Assembly (NCBI GenBank): GCA_030630935.1 | Contig: DAOVMD010000189.1 | Span: 1-6,356 of the forward strand | Length of the DNA stretch: 6,356 nt | Reading direction: 5' to 3' | From: Candidatus Mcinerneyibacteriota bacterium | GTDB taxonomy: Bacteria; AUK180; JAQVHJ01 | Shown here: positions 442-6,356 of the stretch, piece after piece | How positions within the stretch are numbered: the stretch's first letter is position 1 | Layout: each line of letters opens with the position of its first letter | Translations under genes and position numbers: made by a program | Notes under the pieces: generated by a model | Told to the model about the DNA's origin: nothing | The model's input: only the letters and a program-made list of their open reading frames with translations | Databases searched by the model: none

Positions 442-1899
442 TTATTTTACTTTTATTTGACCATCTTTAATATCGAGCTTCAGTACATTTGTATCCGGGT
501 TATTAAGAATGAAATCGACAATTGGTAAGAGGATATAAGTTTCAATTATTTTATCAGTTCCCCGAGCTCCAAATTCCTGTTTGAATTTATTTTTAACCAA
601 AAATTTTAAAACATTATCTTTGACGATTAACTTCTTTTTTTCCTGCTTTAATTTTTCTGTGACAAGTTTTATCTTATACTTTAAAATATCCCGAAAGGTT
701 TTCTTGGTCATTGGATTGAAGAAGATTATCTTATCAATCTTATTCAAAAAGTCAATTGGGAAGAATTCCTTAAGAACATCCGAAAGGAATTCCTGTGATA
801 TTTCAACATCTTTTTTTGAATTAAATCCGATCTTCTTAACTTTTTCGACAAGTGCTTTCGTATTGGAGGTCATTATAAAGACAGTTTCAGAAAAATAGAT
901 TCTTTCTCCGTGCTTACTAATAATATACCCATCACCAAATATTTGGATAAGAAGATTCATTAAGGATTTCGGCATTTTTTCGATACTTTTTAATAGAATA
1001 ATCTGTTTTGGATTTTGAAGGATTGTCTCTGTTAGAATACCTGCTTCCTGAGTACCAACATGTCCCATGAGCGGGCCAAAAAGCTTAAACAGGTCCATCT
1101 CCCCCTTGAAATCTTCAATGTCAATTTTTATTAGGTTGGACTTCTGTCCAAAATATTCCTCAGCAAGAGTTTTTGTAAATTCGGTCTTTCCGACTCCTCT
1201 CTGCCCAATGAACATGAAAATTCCTGCTGGAGTTTCCTGGTTAAGCTCTAATCCTAATTTCTTTAGAAAGAGAGTCTTGATAACCGAGTCGATTACACTT
1301 TTTTGATTTAAAATCTTTTTCTTTAAACGTTTTTGTAATTCCAGAAGATTCTTCTTTATAGAAATCTGATGAGAAATCTCAGCTGTTTTCGAATGTTCTT
1401 TTTTCTTGGTTTTAATAAGTTTTGGGGCTTTCTTATTTGTATCTTTCCAACCCTCAATACGAGGGTTTAAACAATGTGAATCCAATAAATAATCAGTTAG
1501 GTTTTGTAAATTGATCTTTTCTGATTTCAATGTACTTGCGATTTTAGGGATGTATTTTAATATTACAATAAGGAGATGATTGATCTTGACTTCACTTTTA
1601 AATTCAAAGCTTGAGATTTTTCGTGTTTCCTTCACTATCTTCTTCCAGAGCTCAAGGTTTAACTTAGTTTTTGGAAGTTTGTCAAGTTTCTTAATTATAC
1701 TCTTCTGTTTTTTACTCGGGAAAATTTCTAAAAGTTCCTTATTGAAGATAACGTCTGAGTTTTTTAAAATATTAATCAGGATATCTGAAGTCGATAATGG
1801 AGTTTTCTTCATCTTGAAATCTGAATGTATCTTGTTTATAAAATTCTTTAGAAACAGATCAAAACTTTTTGGTAAAACCAGATCTTTTTCTTTTTTCAT
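442..1899 (-). CDS. ClpA/ClpC-like single-module AAA+ protein with degenerate catalytic site (probable pseudo-unfoldase)
   Basis: The 485-residue protein resembles a Clp unfoldase lacking its first AAA+ module. Residues about 34-140 contain two weak Clp N-domain-like repeats (TSDILINILK at 37-46, INHLLIVILK at 106-115). A lysine-rich linker follows at about 150-180. Residues about 185-485 match the second (D2) module and its C-terminal small domain. Retained: Walker A GQRGVGKT (232-239), sensor 1 TSN (344-346), sensor 2 GAR (R446), and an IGF motif (357-359) where ClpA, ClpC and ClpX carry the ClpP-docking loop. Lost: the Walker B acidic pair, read K304-S305 in ILLKSIEK; the arginine finger, read K387 in FLNKID; and the pore-loop tyrosine, read GHVG at 279-282. 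It should bind ATP but not hydrolyse it normally (inference). The ATG is preceded by AGAGG with 11-nt spacing, and the gene starts 18 nt after the YbjN-like stop codon, so the two are almost certainly co-transcribed. Usual Clp ATPases have about 750-850 residues. Confidence 0.88.
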   Translation of the reverse strand: MKKEKDLVLPKSFDLFLKNFINKIHSDFKMKKTPLSTSDILINILKNSDVIFNKELLEIFPSKKQKSIIKKLDKLPKTKLNLELWKKIVKETRKISSFEFKSEVKINHLLIVILKYIPKIASTLKSEKINLQNLTDYLLDSHCLNPRIEGWKDTNKKAPKLIKTKKKEHSKTAEISHQISIKKNLLELQKRLKKKILNQKSVIDSVIKTLFLKKLGLELNQETPAGIFMFIGQRGVGKTEFTKTLAEEYFGQKSNLIKIDIEDFKGEMDLFKLFGPLMGHVGTQEAGILTETILQNPKQIILLKSIEKMPKSLMNLLIQIFGDGYIISKHGERIYFSETVFIMTSNTKALVEKVKKIGFNSKKDVEISQEFLSDVLKEFFPIDFLNKIDKIIFFNPMTKKTFRDILKYKIKLVTEKLKQEKKKLIVKDNVLKFLVKNKFKQEFGARGTDKIIETYILLPIVDFILNNPDTNVLKLDIKDGQIKVK

Positions 1900-1917: not shown

Positions 1918-2349
1918 TTAGATTATATATCCTGATAATTTCGGTTTTAATTCAGATACAGAAAAAATAACCGAATCAAGGGAATGAAGGAGTTGTTCTT
2001 TGGTTAAGGAAAGGATTGGGATTCGTTCAATAAAATAAACTTTGTTGTTGGACTCATTTATTGAAAATGACCCGGTTAAAACTTCGGAAAAATTCATTTC
2101 GAGCATTTTTCTAAAGAATGCCCATTGATTTCCAATAGGTACTCCGCCTAACTCAACAAGCAATTTTACAGATGTCGGCTCATCTCCAATGAGCACTATA
2201 CCAAGGGGATATTCTTCTTCTCTTTCCTTTACAGTAAAGCTAAGCCCCCAGAACCCGGGTTCAATCTTTTCAAAACCGATATTTTCTTCTGTAAACCAGG
2301 ACTCTATCTTACTCTCGATATCTTCAAGTAAACTCTTTTTCTCTTCCAT
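1918..2349 (-). CDS. YbjN / CesT-like (type III secretion chaperone fold) small protein
   Basis: This is a 143-residue acidic, soluble protein with no signal peptide or membrane segment. Its layout fits the YbjN/CesT-like alpha-beta fold. There is an N-terminal helix (about 5-20), then a beta-rich part (about 30-68: GFWGLSFTV, YPLGIVLIG, SVKLLVELGG). A helix ending in a leucine/asparagine motif (FFRKMLEMNF, 78-87) precedes GSFSINESNNKVYFIERIPI (93-112) and a C-terminal helix (about 116-136). That last half is the most YbjN-like part. Members of this superfamily act as small binding or chaperone-like proteins; the partner here is unknown. The start is supported by AGGAAA at 2355-2360. Its stop codon lies within the Shine-Dalgarno region of the ClpA-like gene, suggesting translational coupling. 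A role as adaptor or substrate chaperone for the Clp-like protein is plausible but inferred only from adjacency. Confidence 0.65.
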   Translation of the reverse strand: MEEKKSLLEDIESKIESWFTEENIGFEKIEPGFWGLSFTVKEREEEYPLGIVLIGDEPTSVKLLVELGGVPIGNQWAFFRKMLEMNFSEVLTGSFSINESNNKVYFIERIPILSLTKEQLLHSLDSVIFSVSELKPKLSGYII

Positions 2350-2411: not shown

Positions 2412-2858
2412 TTAAGATTTCTTATAATTCTCAACAAGAGCTTGTGCAAGTTCATAGAAGCTTTTCTTTGACCCATCCGCAGTTTTCATATATGAATCAG
2501 CTTTTAGGGCTTCAAGTTTCTGAAGTTCGTCTTCGGTTGCCTTTATATCGCCAACGGCGAGAAATGCGTTGATCTTAGCATACCTTGCCTTTGCCTCAAT
2601 CTTCCCATATTCCCCAGTCTCCTCACTTAAAGCGATAGTCGCATCGGGGTACTCTTCGATTACCTTTTCAAAATAAGTGATTGCCTGTTTAAACTGCATC
2701 ATCTCGAAATAACACCAACCAATACTATAACAAGCATCATCTGCATACTCAGATTTAGGGTTCACCTTAATGATTTCCTTGAACTTCTCAATGGCTTCAG
2801 CATAGAAACCGTTGCGGTAATCTTGAATGCCGTCTATAAACAAACCTTTTATTTCCAT
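2412..2858 (-). CDS. Small tetratricopeptide-repeat (TPR) protein
   Basis: This 148-residue protein lacks a signal peptide and is probably cytoplasmic. Two clear TPR units are visible at about 5-35 (YRNGFYAEAIEKFKEIIKVNP) and about 39-72 (ACYSIGWCYFEMMQFKQAITYFEKVIEEYP), with the usual G/Y/A-F-P pattern. A less regular third helical pair follows at about 85-120, and a C-terminal helix at 132-146. The spacing resembles the TPRs of BamD- and YbgF-type proteins, but there is no lipobox. TPRs bind protein partners. A strong GGGAGGT Shine-Dalgarno site (2864-2870) fixes the ATG. It is the first gene of a likely operon with the YbjN-like gene (62-nt gap) and the ClpA-like gene, driven from the promoter at 2892-2920. 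Confidence 0.85.
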   Translation of the reverse strand: MEIKGLFIDGIQDYRNGFYAEAIEKFKEIIKVNPKSEYADDACYSIGWCYFEMMQFKQAITYFEKVIEEYPDATIALSEETGEYGKIEAKARYAKINAFLAVGDIKATEDELQKLEALKADSYMKTADGSKKSFYELAQALVENYKKS

Positions 2859-2986: not shown

Positions 2987-3793
2987 CTAACCATTTCGGT
3001 TTAACTTTCCAACTTTCTTAGCATATCTTTCACCCATACTAAATATAATAAGTCCAATTGGGATTAAGATTATACCTAATATAATCAAGATGATTATATC
3101 TCCGGATAATTCATTCAATCCTTTCCCATCTAATATCGCTGCCCTGACTGCGCGCAGAGTATAAGTTGCGGGGGAGATGATTGCCAGTTTTTGCATCCAG
3201 CCCGGTAAAACAGATATTGGATAATATACACCTGAGATTAAAAGGATAATCGCTTGAAAAATATGAGTAGCTTGAGATCCTTTTTCCGGTGAAAGAAGAG
3301 GGAAGACCGCTGCGATTAGTCCCATTCCAATAAATGAAAAGCTAGAAACTACAACAACTAAAACAGCAATCGGAATATTTATATTCGTAAGTTTAATTTC
3401 AAAGAACAATGAGAGAAAGAACAAAACAATTGCACTTCTAATAAGGGCATAAATAACTGCATAAGTCGACATTCCAAGAAGGTAAGTAATTCTCCTGGCA
3501 GGAGCCATGAATGTAAACTCAATTGTTCCTTCCCATCTCTCCCATGAAATTGATTCTGCAACTTCATGGAATATAATTGAAAGGAATCCCCAGAGTAATG
3601 CCCCGATTATCAGGTAAACAACCTTGTTCGGGTCCCCTGATGTTACGCCTATTAAACCTATCGTAACCGCATTAACAATTGTATAGACCATAAAAACGAT
3701 CTCCCACCCGATATATCTCTTAATCAGGTTGAAGTTTCGTTCTATAAATCCTGTTGTTGCTCTTATATCTTTAATTAGTAATTCGTGAAACAT
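2987..3793 (-). CDS. ABC-2 type transporter permease
   Basis: This 268-residue integral membrane protein is the membrane half of an exporter and pairs with the ATPase encoded upstream. About six membrane segments are seen: 28-50, 57-76, 108-131, 138-165, 178-195 and 232-253. Between the second and third lies WERWEGTIEFTFMAPARR (84-101), matching the amphipathic coupling motif of the ABC-2 family (E-G-T-x-E-x-x-x-x-x-P-x-x-R). Before the last segment, YYPISVLPGWMQKLAIISPA (190-209) matches the family signature around the fifth helix. The usual length is 250-280, so the gene is complete. AAAGGAGA (3801-3808), 7 nt before the ATG, sets the start. The substrate cannot be predicted; relatives export drugs, polysaccharides or unknown compounds. 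The 256-nt gap to the ATPase gene is unusually long for such a pair and is filled by a repeat element. Confidence 0.92.
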   Translation of the reverse strand: MFHELLIKDIRATTGFIERNFNLIKRYIGWEIVFMVYTIVNAVTIGLIGVTSGDPNKVVYLIIGALLWGFLSIIFHEVAESISWERWEGTIEFTFMAPARRITYLLGMSTYAVIYALIRSAIVLFFLSLFFEIKLTNINIPIAVLVVVVSSFSFIGMGLIAAVFPLLSPEKGSQATHIFQAIILLISGVYYPISVLPGWMQKLAIISPATYTLRAVRAAILDGKGLNELSGDIIILIILGIILIPIGLIIFSMGERYAKKVGKLNRNG

Positions 3794-3868
3794 GATTAAT
3801 TCTCCTTTATCTTTAATAGTGCCGGGTCTAAAATATTGATGATGTTATTGAGCTGATAGACAACTCCA

Positions 3869-4000
3869 TTTGTCATTACGAAATAGCCGGCATCCTAAGC
3901 GAACATAGTGAGAGAAGACGCATGCTTGTTTTTAAAAAGGGGGATGCCCCCCCCCCCCCCCCAGATTGCCGCAGTCGCTATGCTCCATCGCAATGACAAA
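3869..4000. repeat. Inner palindromic repeat with TTTGTCATT...AATGACAAA ends
   Basis: This 132-bp inner unit is nested in the larger element. Its ends, 3869-3881 and 3988-4000, are inverted copies with 12 of 13 matches. The right half (3963-3999, AGATTGCCG...TCGCAATGACAA) matches the repeat at 293-335. The left half carries a GCGAACATAGTGAGAG segment that looks like a diverged mirror of the right half. This suggests an older repeat inside the 26-bp inverted repeats, or a composite element. Confidence 0.55.
3947..3962. repeat. 16-base C homopolymer (G16 in the operon transcript)
   Basis: Sixteen consecutive C residues follow GGGGG-ATG (3939-3946), in a region that is otherwise AT-rich. On the transcribed minus strand this is G16, which could form a quadruplex or pair with the nearby C-rich strand. 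Runs of this length are prone to slipped-strand length variation and to sequencing length error, so the exact count is uncertain. Confidence 0.85.
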
Positions 4001-4049
4001 AAAATGTTATACGGCAAATGCTATCAATATTTTAGCCCCGGCACTATTT

Positions 4050-4895
4050 TTAATTATCTTCAAGTTCATCAGACTTGAATTCTTTGCCTGTCATTTTAAA
4101 GAACACATCTTCAAGTGTTACATCTTCACTATTTTTTCTGATTGCATTTTTCAAACCTTCAGGGGTATCAATTTTTATAAATTTTCCTGAGTCAATGATT
4201 GCAATCCTATCACAGATCTTATCAGCTTCTTCCATATCATGAGTTGTGATGATCACAGTCGTGTTATGGGTCTCACAGATGCTTAAAATAAACTTCTGCA
4301 CTTCACGCTTTGATTTAGGGTCAAGACCAGTGGTGGGCTCGTCTAATAAAAGTAATGATGGTGAAGTTAAAACAGCTCGGGCAATCGCAACCTTTTGCTG
4401 CATACCCCTTGAAAAATTTTCAAGTGGCTCATCCAACCTTGTAATATCAAGATTTAAAACCCCTAATATCTCAGGGATTTTTTTCTTCGCATCTGCACGT
4501 CGAAGTCCATAGATGCTTGCAGCATATAACAGATTCTCAGTTGTGGATAGCTTTTTAAAGAACGATGCTTCAACAGTAACCCTGTTGATGTATTGACGAA
4601 CTTTGTGGTCGTCTTTCTTAACATCAAATCCAAATACCTTAATCTGACCCTTTTCAATTGTTAATAGGGTCGAGATCATTCGGATTAATGTGGACTTCCC
4701 AGAACCGTTCTGGCCTAAAATCCCAAAAATTTCACCGTAATGAATATTAAAAGATATCCCGTTTACGGCGTAAAAACGGTCCTGGGCTTGTTTAAAAAGT
4801 TCTAAAAACAGCCTTTTCTTTTTTTTCTTCTTCTTTTTGGATTTGCTTTTAAAACTTTTATAAACATCATCTACTAATACAGCATAAGTCTTCAT
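4050..4895 (-). CDS. ABC transporter ATP-binding protein of an ABC-2 exporter
   Basis: This 281-residue cytoplasmic ATPase powers the permease encoded downstream. Motifs in order: Walker A GQNGSGKS (61-68), signature FSRGMQQK (161-168, the SxGMxQ form usual in exporters of this type), Walker B LLLLDEP (171-177), D-loop GLD (180-182), and H-loop TTHD (217-220). At the Q-loop position the sequence reads RVTVEASFF (105-113), with no glutamine. The C-terminal extension (LEDVFFKMTGKEF, 261-273) is typical of the family. Unusually, residues 16-28 form a basic insert with eight consecutive lysines, followed by an amphipathic stretch LFLELFKQAQ, between the first beta-strand and the A-loop region. 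AAAAAGGAGA (4903-4912) fixes the ATG. It is the first gene of the exporter operon, probably read from the sigma-54 promoter at 5102-5118. Confidence 0.95.
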   Translation of the reverse strand: MKTYAVLVDDVYKSFKSKSKKKKKKKKRLFLELFKQAQDRFYAVNGISFNIHYGEIFGILGQNGSGKSTLIRMISTLLTIEKGQIKVFGFDVKKDDHKVRQYINRVTVEASFFKKLSTTENLLYAASIYGLRRADAKKKIPEILGVLNLDITRLDEPLENFSRGMQQKVAIARAVLTSPSLLLLDEPTTGLDPKSKREVQKFILSICETHNTTVIITTHDMEEADKICDRIAIIDSGKFIKIDTPEGLKNAIRKNSEDVTLEDVFFKMTGKEFKSDELEDN

Positions 4896-5511: not shown

Positions 5512-5540
5512 TTGACATTTTATTTATTTTATGTTAAAAT
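5512..5540 (+). promoter_or_regulatory. Extended -10 sigma-70 type promoter of the beta-propeller gene
   Basis: TTGACA (5512-5517), a 17-bp spacer, then TAAAAT (5535-5540) directly preceded by TGT (5532-5534). The -35 and spacing are consensus, and the -10 differs at one base. Transcription would start near 5547, leaving a very short leader of about 15 nt that holds only AGGT (5551-5554) ahead of the ATG. Confidence 0.75.
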
Positions 5541-5561: not shown

Positions 5562-6356
5562 ATGAACAAAAAATTTTTATTATCAGTCTTTTTAATTATT
5601 ACCATCTTCTCATTGAACATCTTTGGACTTGAATTCAATTTAAAATCAAACCCTGATACAACAGGTTACCTTACTTACCTTTCAGGAGACAACACGATAG
5701 TGCAGCCATTGATGAACGGAGAAATCCATTTGTTTACACTCTCCTCCAAGTCACCGGTTAAGGTTATTAAAGGTAAAGGTCCATATTCCGGTGCTGCGAT
5801 AATTGTCTATAATAACTATTTAGTTATTCCGACTCTTGGCAAGAAACTTATTAAGATGGATATTAGTCAGGGTAAAGAATCCTGGAGTTTTGATTTAGGT
5901 AGTCCTACTAAAACCAGCCCTTTATTTTTAGAGTCATCAACACCAATAATAGTTGTTACGACTTTAACTGGCACTTGTTTTGGAATTGATTTTGCATCAG
6001 GTAAAAAACTTTGGTCTCATAAAACGGATTCTTTAATTATGTCTTCCCCAACATTATTTAAGCACGACGGTGAATTTTTTGCAGTCTTTGGAACAACCGG
6101 TGGTAAAATAGTTGTTATTGATAAGGGAGGCAAAGTTTTCAAGTCATTTGAATCAGGTGATCCGGTCAGTACTTCTCCTGCAGTAGGATTAATTAATGAT
6201 GACTCAATTCAGGATATTTTAATAGTTACTGATTCCGGGAAGGTTCAAGCAATTAATGGTTCAAGCTTTGAACTTTTATGGAGCCGTGAACTTAAATCCC
6301 ACACAAAAGCTTCCCCTCTTTTAGGTCATTTTAATTCAGATAATAGACGTGATCCC
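5562..6356 (+). CDS. Secreted PQQ-like / FG-GAP beta-propeller protein (3' end outside the window)
   Basis: 265 codons are open to the window edge without a stop, so the gene is truncated at its 3' end. Residues 1-22 form a classic signal peptide (MNKK, hydrophobic core LLSVFLIITIFSLNI, probable cleavage after FG), so the protein is exported. The rest is built of blade-like repeats. GKESW (104-108), GKKLW (147-151) and FELLW (236-240) carry the PQQ-type W at spacings of 43 and 89 residues. TSP/SSP/ASP triplets at 118-120, 161-163, 204-206 and 250-252 show the same period of about 43-46. Acidic FG-GAP-like turns occur at DDSIQD (213-218) and NSDNRRD (258-264). It could be a BamB-like scaffold or a cell-surface protein; there is no lipobox cysteine and no catalytic residue to name. 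The promoter at 5512-5540 and AGGT at 5551-5554 support the start. Confidence 0.85.
   Translation, partial: MNKKFLLSVFLIITIFSLNIFGLEFNLKSNPDTTGYLTYLSGDNTIVQPLMNGEIHLFTLSSKSPVKVIKGKGPYSGAAIIVYNNYLVIPTLGKKLIKMDISQGKESWSFDLGSPTKTSPLFLESSTPIIVVTTLTGTCFGIDFASGKKLWSHKTDSLIMSSPTLFKHDGEFFAVFGTTGGKIVVIDKGGKVFKSFESGDPVSTSPAVGLINDDSIQDILIVTDSGKVQAINGSSFELLWSRELKSHTKASPLLGHFNSDNRRDP

Follow-up and report, generated by a model that had tools for sequence, protein, structure and literature searches.

A conserved Clp-like pseudo-ATPase family paired with a TY-chaperone in a candidate bacterial phylum

Introduction

ATP-driven threading is the defining property of Clp unfoldases. When Walker B is disabled by design in ClpB, ClpC or ClpX ('trap' mutants), the proteins still bind ATP, assemble into rings and keep hold of substrate. 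Proteasome activators that need no ATP (PafE/Bpa, 11S) dock as caps by short motifs and pass on unfolded clients without hydrolysis. Where Clp ATPases work together with ClpP, they bind its hydrophobic pockets by a tripeptide, (L/I/V)-G-(F/L) (PMC8745299). A separate literature describes the TY-chaperones, with CesT_Tir_1 (PF22550), TY-Chap1 (PF22551) and YbjN among them (PMC9503650, PMC5398634, PMC3575483). In a literature search that was largely limited to openly accessible papers, we found no description of a TY-chaperone paired with a Clp protein.

Here, we describe a phylum-wide family that keeps the presumed docking and nucleotide-binding parts of a Clp protein and discards the motor, and whose gene lies next to that of a TY-chaperone. 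It was recognised in 6,356 nucleotides of DNA from Candidatus Mcinerneyibacteriota (contig DAOVMD010000189.1; the whole stretch is called the window), a contig of a 3.16-Mb genome that is 80% complete. The original prediction, made from the letters of the window, was a Clp-like protein that had lost its hydrolysis residues and was under selection for a non-hydrolysing, nucleotide-binding role, such as a regulator or scaffold.

Results

The gene, here called pseudo-Clp, runs on the minus strand from an ATG at 1899 to a stop that ends at 442 with no interruption, which bears out the predicted open frame of 485 codons. The features of the locus are as follows.

442..1899, minus strand: pseudo-Clp, 485 aa, assigned by open reading frame, Pfam, D2 alignment, predicted model and family alignment; its layout is a helical N-domain (about aa 10-140), a linker, one catalytically dead D2-type AAA+ domain and D2-small
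1480..1870, minus strand: N-terminal helical domain of pseudo-Clp, aa 10-140, from helices in the predicted layout and structural alignment with ClpC
1180..1206, minus strand: Walker A, GQRGVGKTE, aa 232-240
1054..1065, minus strand: degenerate pore loop 1, GHVG, aa 279-282
976..999, minus strand: degenerate Walker B, ILLKSIEK, aa 301-308
823..837, minus strand: KKIGF, aa 355-359, the longest invariant run, at the place where ClpA, ClpC and ClpX have by alignment their (L/I/V)-G-(F/L) loop for docking on ClpP
739..741, minus strand: K387 at the arginine-finger position (DFLNKID)
1918..2349, minus strand: TY-chaperone (CesT/YbjN-like) partner, 143 aa, assigned by Pfam, fold match and synteny
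2412..2858, minus strand: TPR protein, 148 aa, whose gene opens the run of three, found in the window's family only

Family membership was followed in seven genomes of the phylum from two families, the window's own genome with G001 on one side and a sister family of five on the other; two of the seven are only 72-80% complete. Each carries exactly one full-length pseudo-Clp, 20-57% identical to that of the window: the G001 copy, also full-length, shares 57%, and the homologues of the five other genomes (about 452-467 aa) share 20-23%. A scan of named genomes with the window protein as a single query gave no family members; a profile scan gave six, all from metagenome-assembled genomes. Across 386 genomes the seven-member profile scores its members at 570-700 bits and the best other Clp at 175 bits. 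A tree of D2 domains places all seven on one side of a branch (support 99/96), apart from all active D2s. The branch that leads to the sister family is very long (4.2 changes per column), and because of such long branches the exact placement of the family among D2s is unsure. A single-AAA match in another phylum (G022:C7, L030) was rejected as a member, having FDEVEK and RNRL. A plasmid origin was likewise rejected, as tblastn against plasmids returned ordinary Clp D2 only, at best about 35% identical and with none covering 80% of the protein.

In the window's pseudo-Clp the Pfam families AAA_2 (3.9e-29) and ClpB_D2-small (1.4e-10) both exceed their cut-offs; in the sister family AAA_2 does so in both proteins tested and ClpB_D2-small falls below. 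Aligned with structurally solved D2 domains of ClpB, ClpA and ClpC (E about 1e-42), the window's protein is free of gaps across both Walker motifs and the pore region, as had been claimed. All structure predictions were of monomers (pLDDT 75 and 78); among known structures the pseudo-Clp model finds a ClpB/ClpC-like D2 fold, and its matches include entries of Walker B trap mutants (DWB). By open reading frame, Pfam and model alike, the 485 residues hold a single AAA domain and the N-terminal D1 ring is absent. The N-terminal domain has no Pfam match, a search of solved structures with it gave chance matches only, and its match to Clp_N by hhalign is weak (probability 6.8, E 0.005). Of the model, 418 residues align with full ClpC that includes its N-domain, and about 283 without it. 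From this structural alignment and the layout, the domain may be a diverged Clp_N.

All residues and codons named in the original prediction are in place: K304 (AAA, 990-988) and S305 (AGT, 987-985) instead of the Walker B acids, K387 (AAG, 741-739) instead of the arginine finger and H280 (CAT, 1062-1060) instead of the pore tyrosine, together with an intact Walker A, a sensor-1 TSN and a sensor-2 GARG. Its count of two base changes per Walker B codon holds for Asp to Lys, whereas three are required to turn Glu (GAA/GAG) into Ser AGT. The acidic pair is missing in all seven members, which read LLKS, LIKH, LLKH or LIKN, so that Lys always stands for Asp, and S, H or N for Glu. No member has the arginine finger either: its place is taken by K in the window's family and by L, F or Y in the sister family. 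In pore loop 1 the window's family (two members) reads GHVG or GHLG, the other five lack the loop entirely, and the aromatic GYVG occurs in none of the seven. Sensor 2, too, is gone from the sister family, where sensor 1 is altered. The suggested conservation check therefore gives a divided answer: K304 is a hallmark of the whole family, but S305, H280 and K387 are not, since the H280 region and both sensors are kept only in the window's family (two members) and S305 and K387 only or mainly there. The P-loop stands apart: its G, K and E are invariant in 7/7, within GK[ST]E, while the rest of the site changed. By sequence the family is thus a pseudo-ATPase, with hydrolysis residues lost and the P-loop retained. 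The invariant P-loop suggests that pseudo-Clp binds ATP; in the sister family, with sensor 2 and the pore-loop region lost, even ATP binding may be weak.

Selection on the gene could be estimated from G002 and G003, the two closest members and the sole unsaturated pair, which give a dN/dS of 0.049 (dN 0.018, dS 0.367; pN 0.018, pS 0.290). Neighbouring genes in the same pair range from 0.03 to 0.17, and the pseudo-Clp value falls within. The window and G001 are saturated (pN 0.274, pS 0.799). Close homologues with the acids, arginine and tyrosine intact, combined with a high dN/dS, would have spoken against the original prediction; instead, the acids and finger are absent from every member and selection is strongly purifying. 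Pseudo-Clp is a conserved family, maintained without its hydrolysis site, and not a decaying copy.

Over the D2 region, 36 of 326 positions are invariant among the seven members, and K355-K356-I357-G358-F359 is the sole run of five; a run as long occurs in 0.3% of random placements (permutation P 0.003). The IGF at 357-359, invariant in 7/7, follows sensor 1 by 13 residues. In the alignment KKIGF is matched by IGL in the ClpA loop that the BAP chimera (5ofo) carries and by KMGF, KIGF or KLGF in the phylum's own ClpC-type proteins, and several ClpB-type D2s are without it. A ClpP gene is present in all seven genomes (one copy is cut by a contig end), elsewhere in the genome and not beside pseudo-Clp. 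That IGF is retained where nearly every catalytic motif has gone points to ClpP, and by its sequence pseudo-Clp may well dock there through this tripeptide. Nevertheless, some other constraint could preserve IGF, and in one dead-D2 relative YGF stands in its place.

In every one of the seven genomes the gene directly upstream of pseudo-Clp, at a distance of 8-18 nt, encodes a TY-chaperone of 143-146 aa, present as a single copy in each. The window has 18 nt here and then 62 nt to the TPR gene further upstream, so the predicted tight operon placement is confirmed. The TPR gene has a 69% identical copy at the same place in G001 and no clear ortholog in the sister family; being confined to the window's family, it was rejected as a third conserved gene. 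The partner passes the CesT_Tir_1 (PF22550) cut-off of 27 bits in the window (28.9) and in G001 (34.7), and the sister-family copies stay below it. Its predicted structure (pLDDT 78) matches class I chaperones of type III secretion and YbjN-type proteins (Foldseek E 8.5e-6), with Z up to 14.8 for ExsC (2.7 Å over 130 residues), and its fold is that of the 'TY-chaperone' superfamily (PMC9503650). The type III/flagellar export gate FlhA/SctV (FHIPEP) was found in none of the seven genomes, two of them 72-80% complete, in a search that detected its positive controls. As far as the assemblies show, the partner therefore does not serve a type III system, and we reject that role for it.

A single sprA, the gene of the type IX secretion translocon (TIGR04189), directly precedes the pair by 16-74 nt in G002, G003, G004 and G006. 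It lies elsewhere in G005 and in both members of the window's family, and with adjacency in 4/7 only, sprA was rejected as an obligate third gene. Each genome of the phylum has one SprA-like giant by TIGR04189, above the curated cut-off in 3/7 (loci L025, L026, L027, L029, L120 and G000:C73/C221), so the distribution of type IX-like secretion may extend to this candidate phylum.

The rest of the window holds, upstream on the strand of pseudo-Clp, an ordinary transporter pair of an ABC-2 permease and a drrA-like ATPase (2987-4895). Between these two genes, at 3815-4048, a near-perfect 26-nt inverted repeat (3815-3840 / 4023-4048) around a poly-C tract is a small MITE-like insertion. On the plus strand, a near-consensus sigma-70 promoter (5512-5540) precedes a secreted-looking beta-propeller (PQQ/BamB-like) gene that occupies 5562-6356 and is cut by the contig end. 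No RNA families were found in the window.

Pseudo-Clp is not the only Clp protein with a dead D2. A second Clp in the phylum, roughly 710 aa, has an intact D1 (LFFDEIH), a dead D2 (LIFKNVE, IVFTGLE) and a kept pore loop, and adjoins a preceding TY-Chap1-like gene, of which the window's own genome, G000, has three in tandem. A TY-chaperone with a live-D1/dead-D2 Clp also occurs in three other lineages. The loci are:

L034:1-3826 (G000:C222), L055:2-1840 (G001:C178), L126 (G001:C250) and L033:3730-6402 (G004:C28): second Clp of the phylum
L158:2297-5005 (G013), L139:4786-7574 (G200) and L140:4774-7888 (G022): TY-chaperone and live-D1/dead-D2 Clp of the other lineages

The dead D2s of G013, G200 and G022 have no P-loop and keep a GYVG-type pore loop, and the parallel pairs keep [LIVM]GF in all but one. 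Clp-like proteins of 610-650 aa with motifs degenerate in both D1 and D2 occur in G216, G371, G243 and G345 (L136, L137, L138, L141), and no TY-chaperone gene was detected near them. A TY-chaperone search through the ten genomes of the phylum of G022 gave one weak extra match only. Judged by these sequences, there may be a larger group in which TY-chaperones act together with Clp proteins of lost D2 activity, and the window's protein may be the branch of it that is reduced furthest. A common origin of the dead-D2 pairs is neither proved nor excluded by the D2 tree.

Discussion

What could a Clp module do without its motor? The fixed absence of the Walker B acids and arginine finger, the intact P-loop and the low dN/dS support the predicted selected role, non-hydrolysing and nucleotide-binding, of which we infer the ATP binding. 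The proposal of a regulator or scaffold had been left vague. It can be narrowed to a ClpP-linked or client-holding platform, because the TY-chaperone partner is obligate, the docking tripeptide is retained and ClpP is present. Our best reading, with a probability of roughly 0.45, is an ATP-binding, non-hydrolysing Clp platform that is fed by the TY-chaperone and probably docks on ClpP. The conservation evidence comes from seven sequences in two families.

In such a platform, a ClpC/ClpA-type HSP100 protein would have given rise, through its D2 half, to an old phylum-wide pseudo-ATPase. The loss of the Walker B acids and arginine finger would have ended hydrolysis and that of the pore loop threading, with the P-loop and the IGF docking loop retained. 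ATP binding without turnover would set the shape of pseudo-Clp or its assembly into an oligomer. The TY-chaperone, of the kind that holds client stretches unfolded for type III secretion, would contact it and bring the client, and the complex would cap ClpP without unfolding activity or act there as a platform for handover. Given the sprA linkage, large exported proteins would be a first guess for the clients. A bolder version, which we regard as doubtful, is that a dead ATP-binding Clp ring (or subunit) docks on ClpP through its IGF loops and the TY-chaperone replaces the motor, for hydrolysis-free feeding or guarding of ClpP, as a branch of a wider, apparently undescribed group of TY-chaperones with dead-D2 Clp proteins.

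The partner's fold and the position of the pair behind sprA in four genomes also suit a cytosolic holdase, in which TY-chaperone and pseudo-Clp would prevent large exported proteins, the SprA precursor or others, from folding before Sec takes them, and ClpP is uninvolved. We consider this rather unlikely, as sprA lies elsewhere in the three other genomes and the strict IGF would be left unexplained; moreover, type IX cargo crosses by Sec, with no dedicated cytosolic step that we know of. The AAA fold might instead be just a structural body for the TY-chaperone, a plain adaptor or scaffold without nucleotide control whose P-loop is a relic. The sister family, with its very long branch and without sensor 2 and the pore-loop region, would fit this, but a relic is hard to reconcile with a P-loop whose G, K and E stay fixed in 7/7 while the site around them changed, and we hold it to be improbable.

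Even less probable is that the dead D2 inserts into hexamers of active ClpC or ClpB to tune or poison them. Dead subunits are known in other AAA+ rings, the D2 is ClpB/ClpC-like in fold, and active proteins of these types occur in the phylum's genomes; yet without D1, pseudo-Clp cannot match two-ring partners, it no longer has the arginine finger on which an adjacent subunit depends, and the fixed gene neighbour is a TY-chaperone and not a Clp gene. The simultaneous loss of several catalytic residues might finally be read as a decaying pseudogene or an assembly artefact, an explanation with next to no credibility that we reject in view of an open frame in seven independent assemblies, a dN/dS of 0.05 and invariant motifs.

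If the ClpP-docking platform is the true reading, the HSP100 fold can serve as a switchable platform, and ClpP may have in pseudo-Clp a natural partner that works without hydrolysis. Such a conversion of a motor into a platform that does not hydrolyse ATP, probably one for ClpP, would be unusual if confirmed. The locus also links secretion-type chaperones with Clp proteins where the type III export gate was not found, and this link recurs in several lineages.

Comparison with known systems

Pseudo-Clp resembles the D2 of ClpC, ClpA and ClpB (HSP100) in fold and sequence (about 28-35% identity), in its P-loop, in where every motif lies and in D2-small. In contrast to these proteins, it is without D1, Walker B acids, arginine finger and pore tyrosine, and it has an obligate TY-chaperone neighbour. 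Its partner has the TY-chaperone fold and, in the window, passes the PF22550 cut-off, but differs from described TY-chaperones in being paired with a Clp-type AAA+ protein, in genomes without a detected FlhA/SctV. The likeness to PafE/Bpa and 11S would lie in the proposed logic only, as fold and protease are unrelated. Walker B trap mutants are disabled at the same site, although pseudo-Clp is natural, has Asp to Lys instead of Glu to Gln, and has lost the arginine finger and pore loop as well. With the Clp types that bind ClpP, it shares the (L/I/V)-G-(F/L) loop.
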